64,000 bases of DNA from Stigmatella aurantiaca (lineage in GTDB: Bacteria; Myxococcota; Myxococcia; Myxococcales; Myxococcaceae). Shown piece by piece: positions 11,706-33,199 of the stretch; within the stretch, counting starts at the first letter, position 1, and each line of letters begins with the position of its first letter. Made by a program: the position numbers and the translations under genes. The DNA is taken from assembly GCF_900109545.1 (NCBI RefSeq), contig NZ_FOAP01000006.1:62001-126000 (forward strand), read 5' to 3'. A model generated the notes under the pieces. That model worked only from the letters and a program-made list of their open reading frames with translations. It searched no databases and was not told the DNA's origin.

Positions 11706-13841
11706 ATGGCCCTGACTCGAAGCCCTTTTGCCTCACACCTTTCCTCCTATGTGCTCGCCCTCGCCACACTCCTGGCCGGGGTGCTCGCGGGCTGTGGTGA
11801 CGACAGCCCTCCGCCCCCTGCCGCCGCGCGGGCCAACATCCAGGCGGAGTTTCCCCAGGGCGCGTCCACCGCGGAGGTCACCCGGGTGCATGTGGAGCTC
11901 CGGGAGTCTGGCGCGGCCACGTCCATCGGCCTCGAGCTGTCCCGGGAAGACACCACGTGGAAGGGGAGCGTCGACACCCTGGTTCCTGGCAAGAACTATG
12001 TCCTCGAGGGCACTGCGTTCAACGCGGCCTCCGAGCTCCTCTTCCGAGGCGAAGCCGGGCCCATCTCCGCGAGCGCGGGCGGCACCGTGAGCGTCGTCCT
12101 CCCGCTCCAGCCGCGGACGCCTCCCTCCCCCAACAAGGCGCCGGTCATCGATACCGTCTCCCTCAGCGCGGAGCAGGTCTCGGGAGGCGGCACCGTGACG
12201 GCGGGCCTCACGGCACATGATCCCGAGGCAAGCACGCTCACCTTCTCCTGGGTCGCGAACCAGGGCGTCCTCCAGGCGCCCCGGAACACCGCCTCGTCCA
12301 GCGAGGTGGATTGGACGGCGCCCCCGTGCATCGATGGCGAGGTGACCCTCACGGCGGCCGTCACGGACGCGGCAGGCGCGGTCACGCAGCGGCACTTCTC
12401 CATCCGCGCACGCCCGGGCGCTGCCTGCGGAGACACCACGGTCCATGGCGTCCGCAACATCCACCATGTCTCTTCGAATGGGAGCATCCAAGAGGTGCCC
12501 TGGCCCGCGACCGCCACGCTGGGCGCCTGGGTGCCCAACGCCGATGGCATTGGCTACACCTGGCACGCCGCCACGAGCAGCACCGATGGCACCTTCCAGA
12601 TCCCGGGCGTGGCGTCCGGGCCCTACCTGCTCCAGGACAACACCGCCTACATGTGGACCTCGAGCCGGACGCCGGACCTCAGCAGGGCCACCCTGGGCCG
12701 CCCGGGCGTCCCATCCGAGCCCGAAGGCACCCAGCTCACCTTCCAGCTCAGCGGGCTCTCTCCCTGGCAAACGGGCGAGGACCTCCAGCTTCACTCCCCG
12801 GAGACCGGGCTGAGCTACTTCTCCCTGAGCTGCACGAACCCTTACGTCTCCGGGCCCGCGGTGGGCGAAACGGTTTTCAACAGCACCGTGAATTACACGG
12901 TCTCCTTCCGGAACTGCGGCAGCCACCCCATCCGGTTCGACCCCGCCGCGGGAGACACACTCTATGCCACCCAGTTCGTTTCCCGGCTCGATGAGGGGGG
13001 AACCCAGTCCTTCCTGGAGCTGCGCCGGGGTGTCCAGGTGGCCGCCCCCACGGCCAAGAATGGCACGCTGCTGCTCAGCGCGACGCTGGCCCCGCTGCCC
13101 ACCACCTCTCACAGCGTGAGCTACGGCACCGCGTCCTTCGAGGCCCTCGCCCTCGCCGCGCATCCCACCGCGACGCTGGACGCCAACAGGATCTTCCTGG
13201 GCACCTTGCCGGCCTACACGCGGTTCGGCGCGTACGTGGGATGGCCGGATCTGGTCCAGGCGACGTGGCCGCTGAACCGGGGAACCTTCCAGGCGGCGCT
13301 CACCTTCGGCAATCCCTATCCCGCCACCTGGGACCGGTTCATCACGGCCCTGACCTCTTCACGGATCAGCTACTCGGTGGACCTGCCCGACGGCGGAACG
13401 GCGACGCCTCTCCTGCACCTGGTCGCCACCTATGCCCAGGAGCCCCTGTCGGCCAGCGGCACGTCCACGCTGACGGCCCAGGTGGGCCCGCCCCGGGACG
13501 TGCGGCTCAACCAGACGGTGGCCACCACGCCCCTCACGGGGGTAGGCCTCGCGCCCCTGGCGAGCTGGACCGCGCCCGCGCTGGGCACCCCGCACTACTA
13601 CAGCCTGCGCCTCTACGAGCTGTCCGCCAACGCCGCCAAGAAGACCCGGCGCCAGTTGGTGGCCTCGTTCCTCACGGATCAGACCCAGATCCGCCTGCCC
13701 CCAGGGCCTCTGATGCAGGACAAGAGCTATTACCTCGAGGTCACGGCGATCTTCAGCCCGGGCACGTCCACCGGGAAGCCGTTCCTCTTGGCCCCTGTCT
13801 TCCACTCCGCCTCGGCGGTCACGAGCCGCTTCCAGCCCTGA
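11706..13841 (+). CDS. Large lipoprotein with Ig-like domains, function unknown
   Basis: 711 residues. A signal peptide ends in lipobox LAGC (VLAGVLAGCGDDS), predicting a lipid-anchored envelope protein. Residues about 45-135 form a domain that recurs twice in the next gene: an EF(P/S)Q start, a TWKGSV turn, an AFNAS-type helix start and a PLQPRTP end. An Ig/PKD-like domain follows, with CIDGEVTLTAAVTDAAG. The rest resembles secreted carboxypeptidase-regulatory or beta-sandwich modules but matches no enzyme I recognise. It lies about 100 bp from the divergent helicase gene. The start at 11706 is supported by the identical layout of the next gene's N-terminus. Confidence 0.75.
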   Translation: MALTRSPFASHLSSYVLALATLLAGVLAGCGDDSPPPPAAARANIQAEFPQGASTAEVTRVHVELRESGAATSIGLELSREDTTWKGSVDTLVPGKNYVLEGTAFNAASELLFRGEAGPISASAGGTVSVVLPLQPRTPPSPNKAPVIDTVSLSAEQVSGGGTVTAGLTAHDPEASTLTFSWVANQGVLQAPRNTASSSEVDWTAPPCIDGEVTLTAAVTDAAGAVTQRHFSIRARPGAACGDTTVHGVRNIHHVSSNGSIQEVPWPATATLGAWVPNADGIGYTWHAATSSTDGTFQIPGVASGPYLLQDNTAYMWTSSRTPDLSRATLGRPGVPSEPEGTQLTFQLSGLSPWQTGEDLQLHSPETGLSYFSLSCTNPYVSGPAVGETVFNSTVNYTVSFRNCGSHPIRFDPAAGDTLYATQFVSRLDEGGTQSFLELRRGVQVAAPTAKNGTLLLSATLAPLPTTSHSVSYGTASFEALALAAHPTATLDANRIFLGTLPAYTRFGAYVGWPDLVQATWPLNRGTFQAALTFGNPYPATWDRFITALTSSRISYSVDLPDGGTATPLLHLVATYAQEPLSASGTSTLTAQVGPPRDVRLNQTVATTPLTGVGLAPLASWTAPALGTPHYYSLRLYELSANAAKKTRRQLVASFLTDQTQIRLPPGPLMQDKSYYLEVTAIFSPGTSTGKPFLLAPVFHSASAVTSRFQP

Positions 13842-13963
13842 GCCCAGGGCCCGCCCACACGGGAAACAGAAGATTCCTGGCGGGTTGGAGTGCATCCGAG
13901 GCGGGGAGCAATCTCCGGGACGGTCCCATACACTGGGTGTGAACCCTCTCTGTGAAGGACGCC

Positions 13964-14743
13964 ATGGGCCCGACACGCAGCCCCCTCTCCTCGTGCCTCG
14001 CAGTCCGTGAAAAGACGCCGCTCGTGCTGGCCGCGCTCCTGTGCGCGGTCCTCGCGGGTTGCGGTGACGACAGACTCTCGGCCGTTCCCGAGCTCCCCTC
14101 CGCTCCCTCCACCCCCGCGCCTCGCCCCACGGTCCCCGCGTTCACCCAGATCGAGTTCCAGGCGCAGTTTTCCCAGAGCGCGTTCGCCTCGGAAATCACC
14201 TCCGCTCACGTGCAGATCGTCGGGCCGCCTCAAGCAGCCACCACCGTCCCCCTGTCCAAGCAAGGCGATACCTGGAAGGGCAGCGTCGTCGTCCCCACGA
14301 CCGCACAGGGCTATTACTTCGTGGGCAGGGCGTTCAACGCCTCCACCCAGTTCCTCTTCGAGAGCGTCAGTGAGACTCCCCCCGCGGGTCCGGACGGCCT
14401 CCTGAGCGTGGTCCTCCCCTTCGAGCTGCGGACGCCCCTGCCCTTCACCCAGATCGAGTTCCAGGCACAGCTTCCCCAGAGCGAGCTCGCCTCGGAAGTC
14501 ACCTCCGTTCACGTGGAAATCGCCGGGCCTCCGCCGGTCCACACGACCGTCCCCCTGTCCCGGCAAGGCGATACTTGGAAGGGAAGTGTCCGCATCCCTA
14601 CGACCGCGGAGGGCTATTACTTCGTGGGCAGGGCGCTCAACGCTTCGAACCAGTTCCTGTTCGAGAGCGTCGTCAGCGCTCCCGCCGCGACTCCAGACGG
14701 CATCCTGAACGTGGCCCTTCCCTTCCAGCCCCGGACGCCTTGA
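13964..14743 (+). CDS. Lipoprotein made of two tandem copies of a domain shared with the previous gene
   Basis: 259 residues. The ATG at 13964 is chosen over a GTG at 13952 because MGPTRSPLSS aligns with MALTRSPFAS of the preceding lipoprotein. Lipobox LAGC is followed by a Pro/Ser linker. Two repeats of about 90 residues then make up the protein: each starts FTQIEFQAQ, contains QGDTWKGSV and YYFVGRA, and ends near LPF(E/Q)(L/P)RTP. The same fold unit occurs once in the 11706-13841 product, so these are neighbouring paralogues. Function is unknown; a beta-sandwich binding domain is likely. Confidence 0.75.
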   Translation: MGPTRSPLSSCLAVREKTPLVLAALLCAVLAGCGDDRLSAVPELPSAPSTPAPRPTVPAFTQIEFQAQFSQSAFASEITSAHVQIVGPPQAATTVPLSKQGDTWKGSVVVPTTAQGYYFVGRAFNASTQFLFESVSETPPAGPDGLLSVVLPFELRTPLPFTQIEFQAQLPQSELASEVTSVHVEIAGPPPVHTTVPLSRQGDTWKGSVRIPTTAEGYYFVGRALNASNQFLFESVVSAPAATPDGILNVALPFQPRTP

Positions 14744-14797: not shown

Positions 14798-16783
14798 CTA
14801 CCGGGGTGGCAGGGTCACCGGGACGATGGAGGTGTTGTTGTCGAGCGTCGTCTCCTGGAAGGCCCGCGAGGGGTTGAGCGTCACCTGAAGGCGGTAGTCG
14901 CCCGGGGGCACGTCGGTGATGTCCAGCCACTGGCAGTCCAGCGTGTTGCCGTAGAGGTCCGACCAGCCTCGCTGGATGCCCTGGTCATCACACGTGAACT
15001 TCTTGGAGCACGGCACGTCCGGCCCCGTGGCCACGCGCTGGGTGTCCTCCATGCAGTAGGCCTGCTTGCGGCCCGCCAGCACCGTGCGGCCCTCCGCGTC
15101 CACCAGCGCGTACGTAGCGAACCCGCTGAAGTGGTAGTGCCCGTGGCACGGCGAGAAGGTGAAGAGGTCCGGCCGCTCGGCGGGCGGCGGCACCGTGAGG
15201 GTGGCACTGCCCTGGTTCACCGCCTCCACGCTGAAGCGCAGCACGCGGCGCTCCCCAATGCCCTCCACGCACTCCTCCACCTTCGCGCACGAGTTCTCGG
15301 TGACGAAGATGGTGTCGAACAGGATCTCATCCCGCAGCCGGGCCTCGTCGAGGATAAGGTCCGGCAGCTGCGCGCTGACGGGGTGGCACGCACAGTCGGT
15401 GCCGCAGAACTCCGAGGCGCCGCAGGACGGCGTGCACGTGGGGCGCAGGTGGTCACACGCCGCGAAGGTCTCACACGTCCCGGTGGCTGGCACACACAGC
15501 TCGGCATTGGGACAGAAGCCACACTGCCCTCCACACCCGTTGTCGCCACATTCCTTGCCGTCACAGTTGGGGATGCACGGGTTGGCCAGGCAGCGGCCCT
15601 TCACACAGGACTCGTTGCCTCCGCACACGCCGCAATTGCCACCACAGCCATCGCTCCCACCGCAGTAGACGCCGTCGCACTTGGGCACGCAGCCGTTGGC
15701 GGCGAAGCGCACGTTCAGCGTGAAGGGGCCCGCCTGGGTGGAGTCGAATCCGTCCACGATGAGGAAGTAGGTGCCTGGGTCCAACGCCAGCGAGATGCGG
15801 GAGCCATAGTCGCCCGGCGGAGAGGAGTCATCGCTGCACGCCACCGTGCGCGCCGCCGTGTTGTCGAGGCAGTCCGCAGCCCCATTCGCCCCGCGTTGCT
15901 TGCGCAGGTGGAGCACGGTGTCATAGCCGGAGACGCGCGCCTCCAGGCCCGTCTTCCCGGTGAGGGTGAAGGTGTAGACCGACTCCACCGCGGTGCTGGT
16001 CCGGTTGCACGAGGGCACGAGCTGGTGGAGCCCATTCGAGGTGTCGCCCTGGATGACGTGGTCTCCCACCAGCGGCGTCCCGCTGGCCAGGAGCGGCAAG
16101 GGATTGCGGCACGTGCCCGCCTGGGTCTCGGGCCTGCACTCGAAGACGCCCTGCGCACACGCCTGCCCCGCCGGGCAGGTGCCACACTGGCCGCCACAGC
16201 CATCGTCTCCACACAGCTTGCCGGAGCAGTCCGGATCGCACGTCGCCATGCACACCGCGCAGGCGCCCGAGGGGATGTGCTGACACGTCCGCTTCTCCGG
16301 ATCGCAGACGTCGTCGGTACAGGCCGCGCCGTCGTCGCAGGGTGGAGGGCCCGCGACGCACCGCCCATCGGCGAAGCGCTCCTCGCCGTCACAGAACACG
16401 CCGTTGGAGCACGTCACCTCCACGGAGGTCTCGAAGGGCTGCTCGAAGGCGGTGCCCTTGTGCTGGGGCGTCCACCGCACCGTGTGCACGCCCGGCTGAG
16501 CGGGCGCGGAGACCTGGCCCCGGAAGGAGGCCACCTGGCCGGGCTTCACCTGCTCCGAGAGCCCCAGCGGACCGCCCGCCCAGCCCTGGGGGACGAGCTG
16601 CACCTGGCCGGGCTTCCACGTCGCGGTGCCCTCGTTCTTCATCCGAAGGTGTACGTCGCCCGGCCCGTCCGGCCGCAGCTGCAGCGGTGCCTCGGGAGGC
16701 TCCCAGGCCGCGACATACGTGACGTCGTCATCGCAGGCCGTCACCAGCAACAGGAGCGCTGCCCAAAGACTCAAACCTCGCAT
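14798..16783 (-). CDS. Lipoprotein with Cys-rich repeats and a C-terminal lysyl oxidase domain
   Basis: 661 residues from the ATG at 16783; the signal peptide ends in lipobox LVTAC. An Ig-like N-terminal domain is followed by repeated disulfide-rich motifs (GDDGCGGQCGTC, GSDGCGGNCGVC, GDNGCGGQCGFC) around a PPC-like beta domain. The last 170 residues match lysyl oxidase (PF01186). The copper site CHGHYH has His547, His549 and His551. GRKQAYCMED holds Lys573 and DLYGNTLDCQWLDITDVPPG holds Tyr611; these line up with the Lys and Tyr that form the lysyl tyrosylquinone cofactor in animal LOX. It should oxidise primary amines, such as lysine side chains, to aldehydes with H2O2 release outside the inner membrane. 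Target unknown; cross-linking or modifying envelope or prey proteins is inference. Confidence 0.85.
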   Translation of the reverse strand: MRGLSLWAALLLLVTACDDDVTYVAAWEPPEAPLQLRPDGPGDVHLRMKNEGTATWKPGQVQLVPQGWAGGPLGLSEQVKPGQVASFRGQVSAPAQPGVHTVRWTPQHKGTAFEQPFETSVEVTCSNGVFCDGEERFADGRCVAGPPPCDDGAACTDDVCDPEKRTCQHIPSGACAVCMATCDPDCSGKLCGDDGCGGQCGTCPAGQACAQGVFECRPETQAGTCRNPLPLLASGTPLVGDHVIQGDTSNGLHQLVPSCNRTSTAVESVYTFTLTGKTGLEARVSGYDTVLHLRKQRGANGAADCLDNTAARTVACSDDSSPPGDYGSRISLALDPGTYFLIVDGFDSTQAGPFTLNVRFAANGCVPKCDGVYCGGSDGCGGNCGVCGGNESCVKGRCLANPCIPNCDGKECGDNGCGGQCGFCPNAELCVPATGTCETFAACDHLRPTCTPSCGASEFCGTDCACHPVSAQLPDLILDEARLRDEILFDTIFVTENSCAKVEECVEGIGERRVLRFSVEAVNQGSATLTVPPPAERPDLFTFSPCHGHYHFSGFATYALVDAEGRTVLAGRKQAYCMEDTQRVATGPDVPCSKKFTCDDQGIQRGWSDLYGNTLDCQWLDITDVPPGDYRLQVTLNPSRAFQETTLDNNTSIVPVTLPPR

Positions 16784-27893: not shown

Positions 27894-30620
27894 ATGAAGC
27901 GGCTCCTGATGTCCCTGCCCCTCGCGGCGATGCTTGCCTCGGGATGTTCTGACTCGGATGACGAGAAGACCCCCACCCCCCCCACCCCCGAGCCCACCCG
28001 CCAGCCCCAGCTCGCCGTGCAGTTCGAGCCCGTGGACCACTCGGTGGGCAGCTGGCAGTTCTTCCGCGCCACCTTCACCCTGGAGAACACCGGCACCGCG
28101 GAGCTGCCCAGCACCGGCTGGAAGCTCTACTTCAGCCTCGTCCGCCACATCCTCGAGGACGGCAAGGGCGACGCGACGGGCACCCAGGAGCTCGCCAAGC
28201 AGGGCGTCCGCATCACCCCCGCGGGCAAGGCCCAGAGCGGTGACTACTACGTGATGGAGCCCGTCGAGGGCTTCCGGCCCATCGCCCCGGGCGAGAAGCG
28301 CGAGATCAGCGTGCTGATCAGCGACTGGGCCATCATGAAGGCGGATGCCCCCTCCGGCTTCCACATCACCCTCGATGGCCAGGAGCCCAACACGGCGATC
28401 GCCGTGACTTCCACGGTCAAGATCGACATCAACAACCCGAAGCACACCACGCGCTTCGAGGACGACGCCCTGCCGGTGCAGACCCCCACCCTGCGCTACG
28501 ACGAGAACCCCTCGGCGCAGACCCTGGAGCTCAAGTCCCGGCTCCTGCCCACCCCGCGCAAGGTCGAGGCGGGCACGGGCGAGCTGGCGCTCAGCGGCAA
28601 TGTCGTCATCAGCCACCCGGCCGAGCTCCGGGGCGAGGCGGCCTACCTCGTGGCCGCCCTGGGAGACGTGCTGAACGCCTCCATCACCGCCCAGACGTCC
28701 ACCGGCAACGAGCAGATCGCCCTGAGCATCGATCCCAACCTCGATGTCACCGGCGACGGCACCCGGGACGCGGAGGGCTACCAGCTCGAAGTCCAGGACG
28801 GCCGGGTGAAGATCACCGGCGCGGACGCGGCGGGCGTGTTCTACGGCATCCAGACGCTCCGCCAGCTCATCCCCGCCCAGGCCTACCAGGCGGCGGTGCA
28901 GCGGGCCAACCGCCCCACGTCCATCAACCTCCCCGTGGCGCGCATCGCCGATGCGCCGGGGTTCGCCTACCGCGGCATGCAGCTGGACGTGGGCCGCCAC
29001 TTCCAGTCCAAGGAGACCGTCAAGAAGCTGATCGACGTCATCTCCCACTTCAAGATCAACAAGTTCAACCTCCACCTAACGGACGACGAGGGGTGGCGGC
29101 TGGAGACCCCGGGGCTCCCCGAGCTGACGAGCTACGGCGCCCGCCGGGGCTTTGATCTCGAGGAGCTGGAGATGCTCCACACGGCGTTCGGCTCCGGAAA
29201 TGATCTCCAGGACGGAGACCTCATCCGCCAGAAGCCGGCCTCGCCGGAGAAGGCCAACGCCGGGGTCCGGCCCAGCTACCAGGGCTTCGAGACGGCCACG
29301 CTCAACTTCGTGGGCAAGGGCAATGGGTACTACACCACCACGGACTTCGAGGAGATCCTCCGGTACGCCGCCGAGCGGCACATCGAGGTCATCCCCGAGA
29401 TCGACATGCCGGGCCACGCCCGGGCGGCCGTCAAGGCCATGGAGTACCGCTACCGCAAGCTCAAGGACCTGGATCCCGCGCAGGCGGCCGCCTACCGGCT
29501 GATCGACCCGGACGACACCTCCAAGCACAAGAGCGTCCAGGGCTACACGGACAACTTCGTCAACCCGTGCCTGGAGACCACCTACGCCTTCCTGACCAAG
29601 GTGGCCACGGAGATCAAGGCGCGCTACGACGCGGCCGGCGTCCCGCTGAAGACGATCCACGCCGGTGGCGACGAGCTGCCCGCGCTCAACCCCCACGTCT
29701 GGTGGCAGGGCTCGCCGCTGTGCAAGGCGAACGCCGCGACCAAGGACATGACGGACCACCAGCTCTTCAACCAGTTCTTCTCGCGCTGGAGCCAGATCAT
29801 CACCGCCACGGGCGCGAAGGTGACGGGCTGGGACGACATCATCCACAACGGGCTCACCCTGCCCGGCTTCATGCCGATGCCGTGGAGCAACGTGTGGGGC
29901 TGGGGCCGCGAGGACGACGCGTACAAGTACGCCAACCAGGGCTACAAGGTCATCCTGTCCCACTCGACGAACCTCTACATGGACCTGGCCTACAACAAGG
30001 ATCCGGACGAGCCCGGCTACTACTGGGCCAACTTCGTCGACGAGAAGAAGACCTTCGAGTACCGGCCGTTCGACATCTACGCCAACGCCACCCACAACCG
30101 CATGGGCGTGCCGTTCAAGCCCTCCGACTGGGACGGCAAGGAGCGCCTGACGGCCGAGGGCAAGAAGAACATCCTCGGCATGCAGGGGCTGCTCTGGGCC
30201 GAGAACCTGAAGACGCCCGAGGTGATGGAGTACCTGGCCTTCCCGAAGGTGCTCGGCGTCGCCGAGCGCGCCTGGAACCCGGAGCTGCCGGACGTGAGCC
30301 AGATGCCCGCCCTGTGGGGCCAGTTCACCAACAGCCTCGGCCAGCACGTGCTGCCGCGCCTGGGGGCCTACCGCCCGGTGGACCTGCGTGACGAGCTGCC
30401 CGACGCGGTGGGGGTGAACTACCGCATCCCGCTGCCGGGCGCGCGCCTCATGGACGGGAAGCTGCACGCCAACGTGCGCTACCCGGGCATGACCCTCGAG
30501 TACTCGGTGGATGGGGGCAAGACCTGGACGGCGTACACGGAGCCCGTGACGGCCTCCGCCGGTGTGCAGCTGCGCACGCGGGCCGCCGACGGCCGCGCCA
30601 GCCGCGTCACCACCCTGTAG
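27894..30620 (+). CDS. Lipoprotein beta-N-acetylhexosaminidase (chitobiase), GH20
   Basis: 908 residues. The ATG at 27894 has GGGAGGAA upstream and begins a signal peptide with lipobox ASGC, so the enzyme is lipid-anchored. An N-terminal CHB_HEX carbohydrate-binding domain (about 40-190), a GH20b domain and the GH20 TIM barrel follow. HAGGDE holds the catalytic Asp593-Glu594 pair used in substrate-assisted hydrolysis, and GYTDNFVNPCLE and VWGWGRED line the pocket. A C-terminal CHB_HEX_C domain ends the protein. It releases GlcNAc from chitobiose and chitin oligomers, feeding the PTS encoded just upstream. Confidence 0.93.
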   Translation: MKRLLMSLPLAAMLASGCSDSDDEKTPTPPTPEPTRQPQLAVQFEPVDHSVGSWQFFRATFTLENTGTAELPSTGWKLYFSLVRHILEDGKGDATGTQELAKQGVRITPAGKAQSGDYYVMEPVEGFRPIAPGEKREISVLISDWAIMKADAPSGFHITLDGQEPNTAIAVTSTVKIDINNPKHTTRFEDDALPVQTPTLRYDENPSAQTLELKSRLLPTPRKVEAGTGELALSGNVVISHPAELRGEAAYLVAALGDVLNASITAQTSTGNEQIALSIDPNLDVTGDGTRDAEGYQLEVQDGRVKITGADAAGVFYGIQTLRQLIPAQAYQAAVQRANRPTSINLPVARIADAPGFAYRGMQLDVGRHFQSKETVKKLIDVISHFKINKFNLHLTDDEGWRLETPGLPELTSYGARRGFDLEELEMLHTAFGSGNDLQDGDLIRQKPASPEKANAGVRPSYQGFETATLNFVGKGNGYYTTTDFEEILRYAAERHIEVIPEIDMPGHARAAVKAMEYRYRKLKDLDPAQAAAYRLIDPDDTSKHKSVQGYTDNFVNPCLETTYAFLTKVATEIKARYDAAGVPLKTIHAGGDELPALNPHVWWQGSPLCKANAATKDMTDHQLFNQFFSRWSQIITATGAKVTGWDDIIHNGLTLPGFMPMPWSNVWGWGREDDAYKYANQGYKVILSHSTNLYMDLAYNKDPDEPGYYWANFVDEKKTFEYRPFDIYANATHNRMGVPFKPSDWDGKERLTAEGKKNILGMQGLLWAENLKTPEVMEYLAFPKVLGVAERAWNPELPDVSQMPALWGQFTNSLGQHVLPRLGAYRPVDLRDELPDAVGVNYRIPLPGARLMDGKLHANVRYPGMTLEYSVDGGKTWTAYTEPVTASAGVQLRTRAADGRASRVTTL

Positions 30621-31351: not shown

Positions 31352-33199
31352 CTAGTACTTCGGCAGGGTGGGGATGCTCTGGTTGCAGTTGCTGGTGATG
31401 CCGAGGATCTGGCAGACCTTCTGGCCGGCGGAGTTCACCGAGGCGGCTCCGGCGGGCGGGGCCATGTGGACGCGCTCCTTCCAGATCTGCCACACCATCA
31501 TGCCGTCGGTGGCCTTGCCCTTGTTCTTCATGTACGTGGCGAGCGTCTCGACGTTGTAATACTTCGTCGCCATGTTGTTCTGGCCGGTGAGCATCTCGGC
31601 GTCGTACACGGTGCCGGGGTCCGCGTTGAGCCGCAGCGTCGCGCCGCCCGCGCCCTCGGGAGCAATCTCCAGCCCCATCGCGATCGGGCCGCTGTAGATG
31701 GCCCGGTACGACTCATAGCCCTCGCGGGGATCGTAGTACTCGCCCCCGTCGTAGGACATGAGGTTGATGTGGTGCAGCTTGCTGCCGTGGTTCTTCACCA
31801 CGCTGTACATGGTGCCGCCGAAGGGCGAGCCCCACTGCACCTTGCCCTCCTCGAACGGGGTGCCCTTCACGTAGTAGGCGCCCGTGGACCAGCCCGCGAT
31901 GGAGATGCCCAGCTTCAGCCCGCGCGAGCGGATGGTGCTGTCCAGGCTGGTGATGATGCCGGCAATCTCTCCGTCCTTGGAGCAGCTGAACTGGGCGGCC
32001 TCCAGCTTGTTGCAGCTGCTGCCGCTCGACTCCCAGTCGATGTCGATGCCGTCAGCGCCCAGGTCCTGCGCCAGGTCCACGACGCGCGCGGCGTTGAAGC
32101 TCTCCCACTGGGTGCCCTGGCTGTAGCTCCACCCGCCCACGGACAGCCACACCTGGGTGCCGCGCGTGCGCAGGGCGCGGATGTTGTTGATGAGCGTCTG
32201 CGACTGGGCCGGGGTGAACTTCTTCTGCCCGGTGTTCGTCGTGGCGCCCTCGAAGAACTCAAGCCCGGCCACTTCCTGGTCGAACGCGAACGAGCCCTTC
32301 TGGTAGGCCGTGTTCGGCCGCACGAAGGACAGGTTCAGGTGCGTGTAGTAGCTGGGGATGTTCGCGGGGGTGAGGTCCTCGATGCTGGTGTTCCAGCTGC
32401 TCGCGTAGCCGATGTACATCCGGCCACCCGGCGGGAGGGGTGGATCCTGCGGCAGGGCGACGGTGACGCCCGCCGCGCTGGAAGTCGCACTGTTCCCCGC
32501 CCCGTCGAAGGCCTTCGCCGTGTAGCTGTAGGTGCCGTTCTGCGCGCTGGAGCTGAAGCCGTCCGACACGCTGTAGGGGCTGGTGGTGTCCGTGCTCAGC
32601 AGGGTGCCGTTCTTGTAGAACTCGACCCGGGCCACGCCCACGTTGTCGCTCGCCGGGGCGGTGAGGACGACGCTGCCCGCGCTGGTGAGCCGCGTGGTGC
32701 TGGCCGACAGGCTGACCGTCGGGGCGGTCTTGTCGTTCGGGTCCGTGGGCGGCAGGCCCCCATCACACGAGTAGCCGTTGATGGTGCAGGCGCTCAGCCC
32801 GCTGTAGGTCCCCGCGCCCTCGAAGGTGACGGTGACGCTGCCCAGCGCGGGCACCACGTTGCCGCCCCAGGCGTTGGGGAGGAACGTCCACGAGCCATCG
32901 CTGCCCTGGCTGGCGGAGCCGCCCGCGCCCCAGGGAGCGCCCCGGACCGAGACGGTGCCGTTGAACTTGAACTTGAGCGCCCAGTCGGTGATGGGGCTGG
33001 AGGTGGTGTTCTGGATGGTGAACACCCCGTTGAAGCCTCCATCCCACTTGGAGCTGGTGGCGAAGGTGGCCTTCAGCCCGGCGGCGGACGCCGCGAGCTG
33101 GAGGCTCTGCAGGGTGGCGGGCTCCTGCGGCTCCTCACCGCAAGAAGCCGCCAGGGCGCCCACGAGGGCGGTCACAAGGAATTTTCTCGGCTGACGCAT
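31352..33199 (-). CDS. Lipoprotein GH18 chitinase with CBM2-like and Ig-like domains
   Basis: 615 residues. The signal peptide has lipobox AASC. A CBM2-type module (about 35-145, with SKWDGGFNGVFTIQNT) and a Big-type Ig domain (about 150-245) precede the GH18 barrel. The barrel has the strand motif VWLSVGGWSYSQG and the catalytic DGIDIDWE, whose last residue is Glu390. The final INLMSYDGGEYYDP and MVWQIWKE match chitinases of the ChiA/ChiD families. It hydrolyses chitin chains outside the cell. It is 33 bp downstream of the next chitinase gene on the same strand, so the three chitin genes form one transcription unit. Confidence 0.92.
   Translation of the reverse strand: MRQPRKFLVTALVGALAASCGEEPQEPATLQSLQLAASAAGLKATFATSSKWDGGFNGVFTIQNTTSSPITDWALKFKFNGTVSVRGAPWGAGGSASQGSDGSWTFLPNAWGGNVVPALGSVTVTFEGAGTYSGLSACTINGYSCDGGLPPTDPNDKTAPTVSLSASTTRLTSAGSVVLTAPASDNVGVARVEFYKNGTLLSTDTTSPYSVSDGFSSSAQNGTYSYTAKAFDGAGNSATSSAAGVTVALPQDPPLPPGGRMYIGYASSWNTSIEDLTPANIPSYYTHLNLSFVRPNTAYQKGSFAFDQEVAGLEFFEGATTNTGQKKFTPAQSQTLINNIRALRTRGTQVWLSVGGWSYSQGTQWESFNAARVVDLAQDLGADGIDIDWESSGSSCNKLEAAQFSCSKDGEIAGIITSLDSTIRSRGLKLGISIAGWSTGAYYVKGTPFEEGKVQWGSPFGGTMYSVVKNHGSKLHHINLMSYDGGEYYDPREGYESYRAIYSGPIAMGLEIAPEGAGGATLRLNADPGTVYDAEMLTGQNNMATKYYNVETLATYMKNKGKATDGMMVWQIWKERVHMAPPAGAASVNSAGQKVCQILGITSNCNQSIPTLPKY

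Follow-up and report, generated by a model that had tools for sequence, protein, structure and literature searches.

A predicted lipoprotein of Stigmatella aurantiaca with a C-terminal lysyl oxidase domain, and a possible kinship of this domain with CARDB

Gene organization and predicted lipid anchor

The window analyzed here is a stretch of 64,000 nucleotides from Stigmatella aurantiaca (contig NZ_FOAP01000006.1). On its minus strand, an open reading frame runs from an ATG at 16783 to its end at 14798. The sequence AGGGGGAA, which is ribosome-binding-like, sits just upstream of the ATG, and the translation of the 661-aa protein starts with MRGLSLWAALLLLVTAC. The features of the gene are collected in Table 1.

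Table 1. Features of the lysyl oxidase gene and its product; positions are those of the window.
Feature	Position	Strand	Remarks
Complete gene	14798..16783	-	661 aa; predicted lipoprotein carrying a lysyl oxidase domain at its C terminus
Signal peptide and lipobox LVTAC	16733..16783	-	Residues 1-17; Cys17 predicted to be lipidated; +2 Asp, +7 Tyr
FW (NBR1-type) Ig-like domain	16412..16711	-	Residues 25-124; sub-threshold Pfam match and fold match
First Cys-rich segment	16109..16411	-	Residues 125-225; repeat CxxxCxGxxCGxxGCGGxCGxC at 182-203
PPC/collagen-binding-domain-like beta-sandwich	15692..16108	-	Residues 226-364; sub-threshold profiles and fold match
Second Cys-rich segment	15374..15691	-	Residues 365-470; repeats at 365-387 and 403-424
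Lysyl oxidase catalytic domain	14801..15373	-	Residues 471-661, the C-terminal 191 residues
Copper-site histidines H547, H549, H551 in CHGHYH	15131..15145	-	LOXL2 alignment, conservation
K573, predicted LTQ lysine	15065..15067	-	LOXL2 alignment, conservation
Y611, predicted LTQ tyrosine	14951..14953	-	LOXL2 alignment, conservation

A preliminary description of this DNA, made from the sequence alone, had proposed that the protein is lipid-anchored. One feature supported the anchor, namely the lipobox, the pattern of which was matched by eight of nine proteins (the window protein and eight orthologues); the sole exception, L009, reads ATSC. In the sorting pattern described for Myxococcus xanthus, lipoproteins with Lys at +2 go to the inner membrane and those with Ala at +7 to the matrix (PMC3222651). 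The mature window protein would start with C-D-D-D-V-T-Y and has neither residue, so that its default placement would be the outer membrane, a guess made with the pattern of another genus.

Lysyl oxidase domain and its active-site residues

The C-terminal domain was assigned to the lysyl oxidase (LOX) family by a match to Pfam PF01186 at residues 504-652 (E = 8.4e-33; 114.2 bits, cut-off 20.4), and its best PDB sequence match was human LOXL2 (5ze3, E = 2.4e-26). The numbering H547/H549/H551, K573 and Y611 in the preliminary description was exact on the translated protein. As it had claimed, these residues align with the copper-site and quinone-forming residues of animal LOX: in the local match with LOXL2, the three histidines of CHGHYH pair with those of CHRHYH, K573 with the Lys of HKASFC, and Y611 with the Tyr of MYRHDIDC. 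The stretch pointed out as highly similar, DCQWLDITDVPPGDY, aligns with DCQWVDITDVPPGDY of human LOXL2, and DCQW(L/V)DITDVPPGDY is nearly identical in the two proteins.

The set of copper residues had also been called full. This held for the three histidines of the bacterial type, but the fourth, animal-type histidine, which corresponds to H289 of human LOX (PMC4448552), is replaced by Ser544. In this column, three residues before the first copper histidine, His was found in only 4 of 118 intact domains, and the first animal histidine is described as absent from bacterial, fungal and amoebozoan LOX (PMC4448552).

The AlphaFold2 model of residues 471-661, made with 95 aligned LOX domains, had a mean pLDDT of 95.9 and a pTM of 0.90. 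It matched LOXL2 in Foldseek (E = 4.5e-16 for 5ze3_B, 1.1e-15 for 5ze3_A) and in VIA-align (Z = 22.5, rmsd 1.9, 183 residues aligned). At the level of family fold and residue identity, the predicted fold does carry the site. The domain thus shares with the amine oxidase domain of LOXL2 the fold and five catalytic residues, while it is 32-34% identical in sequence, has Ser544 in place of the extra animal histidine, and is not accompanied by the SRCR modules that are N-terminal in LOXL2-4, for which the window protein gave no Pfam match at E up to 1. In the solved precursor state of LOXL2, the Lys-Tyr pair is 16.6 Å apart (PMC9659206); the residues alone are therefore no proof that LTQ forms.

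Conservation and selection

To read the conservation of the active site, it matters how the sequences were gathered. The scan of named genomes gave 390 stretches encoding relatives, and the 80 named loci are the best 80 of these, fetched by two peptide patterns, one of which contains the LTQ Tyr. Among 123 LOX segments (from 118 ORFs at 115 loci) counted with no His filter, the three histidines, Lys and Tyr were all kept in 118, repeated sequences included. The remaining five were three degenerate copies, each adjoining an intact one, and two identical fragments. The degenerate copies belong to tandem LOX proteins (L003 at 270-1748, L069 and L079), where every copper and LTQ residue is gone from the N-terminal copy and the C-terminal copy is intact.

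An alignment of 95 domains (the window domain and 94 others, the second domain of L073 not included) contained 15 invariant columns, among them the three His, Lys and Tyr. Its rows had passed a filter for length and the His motif, de-duplication to 110 and thinning to 95, so that the invariance of the histidines proves nothing and that of Tyr, which is part of one fetching pattern, proves little; only the Lys result (95 of 95 rows) is independent of such selection. Cys577 and Cys598 were both present in 98 of the 118 intact domains and both absent in the other 20, and never occurred singly, as would be expected of a disulfide pair.

When the window protein was compared with three orthologues, the LOX part gave dN/dS values of 0.056, 0.073 and 0.079, indicating that the domain is under purifying selection. 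The FW/Ig-like part evolved fast (dN/dS 0.54-0.91 against three orthologues). Selection thus maintains the enzyme and lets its outermost module drift. The claim that the protein is a bacterial LOX with the residues for copper and LTQ is supported by its family, fold, conservation and selection; we regard it as a real and probably active enzyme.

Modules preceding the LOX domain

Residues 25-124 gave a sub-threshold Pfam match to N_BRCA1_IG (20.3 bits against a cut-off of 28), and their model matched NBR1 (4ole, VIA Z = 9.9) and the FW domain of ILRUN (6vhi, Z = 9.6). Residues 226-364 were likewise below threshold for PPC (17.1 bits against 25.9) and for the DVUA0089 family (20.5 against 29), and the model of this middle domain (about residues 220-360) matched s3b of ColG, a bacterial collagenase (2o8o, Z = 10.6). 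Over both parts, other chains scored nearly as high. The Cys-rich segments flank the PPC-like domain on either side and contain three copies of the 22-23-residue motif CxxxCxGxxCGx(1-3)GCGGxCGxC. With these copies and 51 Cys in the whole protein, the fusion of disulfide-rich repeats to LOX noted earlier was confirmed. The full-length model was modest (pLDDT 70.0, pTM 0.37), and the arrangement of the modules relative to each other is not readable from it.

Most prokaryotic LOX in a survey of 2015 were described as having simple architectures (PMC4448552). The order FW/Ig-like, Cys-rich, PPC-like, Cys-rich and LOX is a minor variant that is kept in relatives: conservation extends along the entire protein within the genus and in four Polyangium loci, which are 57-59% identical to it over about 650 aa, and L036 and L037 match much of it (56% over 609 aa and 51% over 622 aa).

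Distribution, phylogeny and gene neighbourhood

The genome that contains the window has a single LOX. PF01186 was found in all seven genomes of the same genus that were listed, this one included, in 62 of 145 genomes of the order, and in 71 of 195 genomes in a phylum-wide search that overlaps the order-level set. A tree was made from 111 of the 123 segments, leaving out segments shorter than 130 residues, duplicates and the three degenerate copies; its bootstrap was not fully settled. The window protein fell in a clade of eight rows of the same family (100/98), which four Polyangium rows join (100/93) before the family-mate L006, a nesting that hints at transfer between orders. A further comparison, meant to place animal LOX and with one human sequence as its only animal row, gave this row a long branch and no supported position. 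By similarity to LOXL2, the window protein ranked 60th of 111, and it is thus not specially animal-like.

A second, distinct LOX clade of the same family comprised 19 domains (100/100). Two of its members, L018 (1495-3504, minus strand) and L022 (19-2073, plus strand), resemble the window protein in their lipoprotein-like N terminus and C-terminal LOX domain with all five catalytic residues, but their LOX is fused to FG-GAP beta-propeller repeats and lacks Cys at the positions of 577 and 598.

Genes flanking the LOX gene, coding for a helicase, a kinase, a NagA-like protein and a SIS protein, were found again in the G077, G078 and G079 regions, and the upstream lipoprotein gene is present in two of these three syntenic regions. 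No match to the flanking genes was found at 1e-10 in the other 11 of the 14 regions compared, some of which are short; L032 and L120, among the regions compared, are apparently the same contig. Of the proteins encoded nearby, eight were scanned: five matched Pfam families, with no copper or amine-oxidation theme among them, and three matched none. With flanks that recur in 3 of 14 regions and no such theme, the neighbourhood was dropped as a functional clue.

Two lipoprotein-like genes with no Pfam match lie next to each other at 11706-13841 and 13952-14743. The second, which is the smaller, shows signs of an internal duplication, and in the related region L118 a part of it is also similar (39%) to the larger protein.

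Relation to known lysyl oxidases

Genome G078, which we take to be that of Stigmatella aurantiaca DW4/3-1, has one PF01186 match, and its LOX is 86.6% identical to the window protein over 651 aa. The orthologue, L010, has the same catalytic residues as the window protein and is 95% identical to it in the LOX domain, against 68% in the FW/Ig-like part, the lowest value outside the signal peptide. The window protein belongs to a known family and is an orthologue of a member that appears to have been published already. The survey of 2015 found LOX in five bacterial clades (PMC4448552). A 2018 article in Plant Direct lists S. aurantiaca DW4/3-1 (Table 1 and Fig. 8 legend) and Sorangium, and describes myxobacterial LOX as retaining K, Y and the copper histidines other than the first one (PMC6508830).

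For a prokaryotic LOX, activity has also been measured. HTU-LOX of the archaeon Haloterrigena turkmenica, described in 2019, has the three copper histidines and the LTQ Lys and Tyr in common with the window LOX. After removal of its N terminus it was an active amine oxidase of broad specificity, blocked by 3-aminopropionitrile, while the full-length form was inactive and the host had no detectable amine oxidase activity (PMC6452851). By its description, HTU-LOX is set apart from the window protein by an N-terminal hydrophobic signal and an inhibitory stretch (PMC6452851), and the FW, Cys-rich and PPC-like modules belong to the window protein and not to HTU-LOX as described. In view of the bacterial LOX published in 2015, the DW4/3-1 LOX of 2018 and the archaeal activity, the suggestion that amine oxidation would be a new activity in this setting did not hold. 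In a search that covered few subscription journals, no title indicated functional work on a LOX from myxobacteria, and no paper contained both 'lysyl oxidase' and 'Myxococcus'. Since an orthologue of this strongly conserved LOX is apparently present in DW4/3-1, a laboratory strain, the role of a bacterial LOX is open to direct testing.

Proposed function and alternative explanations

We consider it likely, from sequence, models and analogy, that the gene codes for an exported lipoprotein that presents a copper-dependent LOX domain with an LTQ cofactor on the cell envelope. Judging from the sequence only, the protein would be exported by Sec, lipidated at Cys17 and placed by default in the outer membrane. 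If established LOX chemistry applies, Cu2+ held by H547, H549 and H551 would lead to self-processing of Y611, and the processed Y611 would join K573 to form LTQ. LTQ would then convert primary amines, whether of protein lysines or of small molecules, into aldehydes, producing ammonia and H2O2. The FW-like, Cys-rich and PPC-like modules may act as a disulfide-stiffened spacer or as a binding arm. As substrate we favour, tentatively and at a little below an even chance, the cell's own surface or matrix proteins. The preliminary description had spoken of envelope or prey proteins; this analysis gave no indication of prey as the target, nor of a specific envelope protein.

The enzyme might instead serve amine scavenging or detoxification of amine drugs, deaminating small primary amines, aminoglycosides and peptide antibiotics at the cell surface. 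This is possible though rather unlikely. Among the substrates of HTU-LOX are taurine, glycine, several aminoglycosides and polymyxin (PMC6452851). Compatible with such a stand-alone enzyme are the single LOX in the genome and neighbours that recur in 3 of 14 regions, and two genes of amino-sugar type (NagA-like and SIS) lie a few genes away. The large non-catalytic region, however, is also conserved, in the four Polyangium loci, L036 and L037, which suggests binding to something macromolecular. Action on prey, in which aldehydes or H2O2 formed at contact would damage or tether prey surface proteins, seems improbable. LOX chemistry does release H2O2 as a by-product, and the myxobacterial setting and predicted surface anchoring would suit such a role, but none of the five Pfam-matched proteins among the eight neighbours scanned (three had no match) suggests prey killing. 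PF01186 also occurs in Luteolibacter (L072), Planctomycetota (L084) and Bacteroidota (L042), lineages that are not known as predators.

Degenerate LOX copies in L003, L069 and L079 bring up a catalytically dead LOX-fold adhesion module, which we regard as very improbable here, given that the five catalytic residues are kept in the window protein and in 118 of 123 segments, with dN/dS of 0.06-0.08. Least probable in our view is cross-linking of the cell's own collagen-like proteins in the animal style. The genome has six matches to the collagen profile PF01391 (best 1.6e-8), and the middle domain folds like a collagen-binding domain of collagenase (Z = 10.6); yet the PPC-like fold is common, with other beta-sandwich chains reaching Z of 8-10 over the same part, and in four of the six PF01391 matches the reading frame is interrupted by stop codons, the reason for which collagen was set aside as a substrate. 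Cross-linking of collagen by bacterial LOX was also deemed unlikely by Grau-Bove 2015 (PMC4448552).

Possible kinship of the LOX fold with CARDB

After LOXL2, the best structural match to the LOX model was CARDB (3idu, PF07705; Foldseek 8.8e-4), with a Z of 8.8 that is only slightly higher than the 8.2 of glycoside-hydrolase Ig domains. CARDB resembles LOX in its beta-sandwich core and C-terminal motif, and nearly its full length (107 of 110 residues) aligns with the LOX domain, but it is much shorter and lacks the part in which the copper and LTQ residues are located. In sequence, weak CARDB matches were found in 27 of the 95 LOX domains (best 2.5e-4), and L003 scored above the CARDB cut-off (26.0 against 22.7), with the best stretch in its degenerate LOX copy.

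LOX and CARDB were also compared by hhalign, with PKD, FN3 and DUF11 as controls; for CARDB, PKD, FN3 and DUF11, 27, 27, 28 and 26 of 30 loci each were retained. The score of LOX against CARDB was 38.4, whereas the maximum in 200 column shuffles was 19.05. For the whole LOX domain, the first settings, the only ones used with controls here, gave CARDB a Probab of 74 over 108 columns and the controls at most 0.15. The second settings gave CARDB a Probab of 85 over 32 columns; since the extent depends on the settings, the similarity in sequence may come mostly from the C-terminal strands. With these second settings, for which the controls were compared with the LOX core alone, the core without the catalytic segment matched CARDB with a score of 37.1 and a Probab of 89, against 13 for PKD, 0.4 for FN3 and 0.7 for DUF11. 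The catalytic segment alone gave 0.13 against CARDB. CARDB and DUF11 matched each other at 94, so that the kinship may be a general Ig-like one.

Together, the profile and fold comparisons with their controls suggest that LOX is built as a CARDB-like sandwich into which a catalytic segment has been inserted. We give an even chance to the proposal that the LOX domain, and hence the animal collagen cross-linker, descends from a bacterial adhesion beta-sandwich of the CARDB type. As part of this proposal, the insert would comprise roughly 85-90 residues, among them the copper histidines and the Lys and Tyr of LTQ; its boundaries (domain residues 60-147) are our own cut. Intact LOX and degenerate copies devoid of all five catalytic residues still occur side by side in myxobacteria. 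Judged by title and abstract opening, none of the few papers that turned up joins LOX and CARDB. The link, if true, would give the LOX family a structural origin.

Other occurrences of PF01186

Several other arrangements of LOX were noticed. In 13 of 16 genomes of genus g6, two PF01186 matches lie about 2 kb apart, for example at 29288-29854 and 31413-31979 of G058:C477. In a MAG of Bdellovibrionales (L085:7314-9674), LOX is fused to a glucose/sorbosone dehydrogenase domain. Two sequences titled Klebsiella pneumoniae (L056) and Bifidobacterium breve (L107) were grouped by the tree with deltaproteobacterial and uncultured proteobacterial rows, and their organism titles are therefore probably wrong. 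At G100:C1:8512936-8513501, the PF01186 match is split across two frames, suggesting that the LOX gene of this genome is broken.
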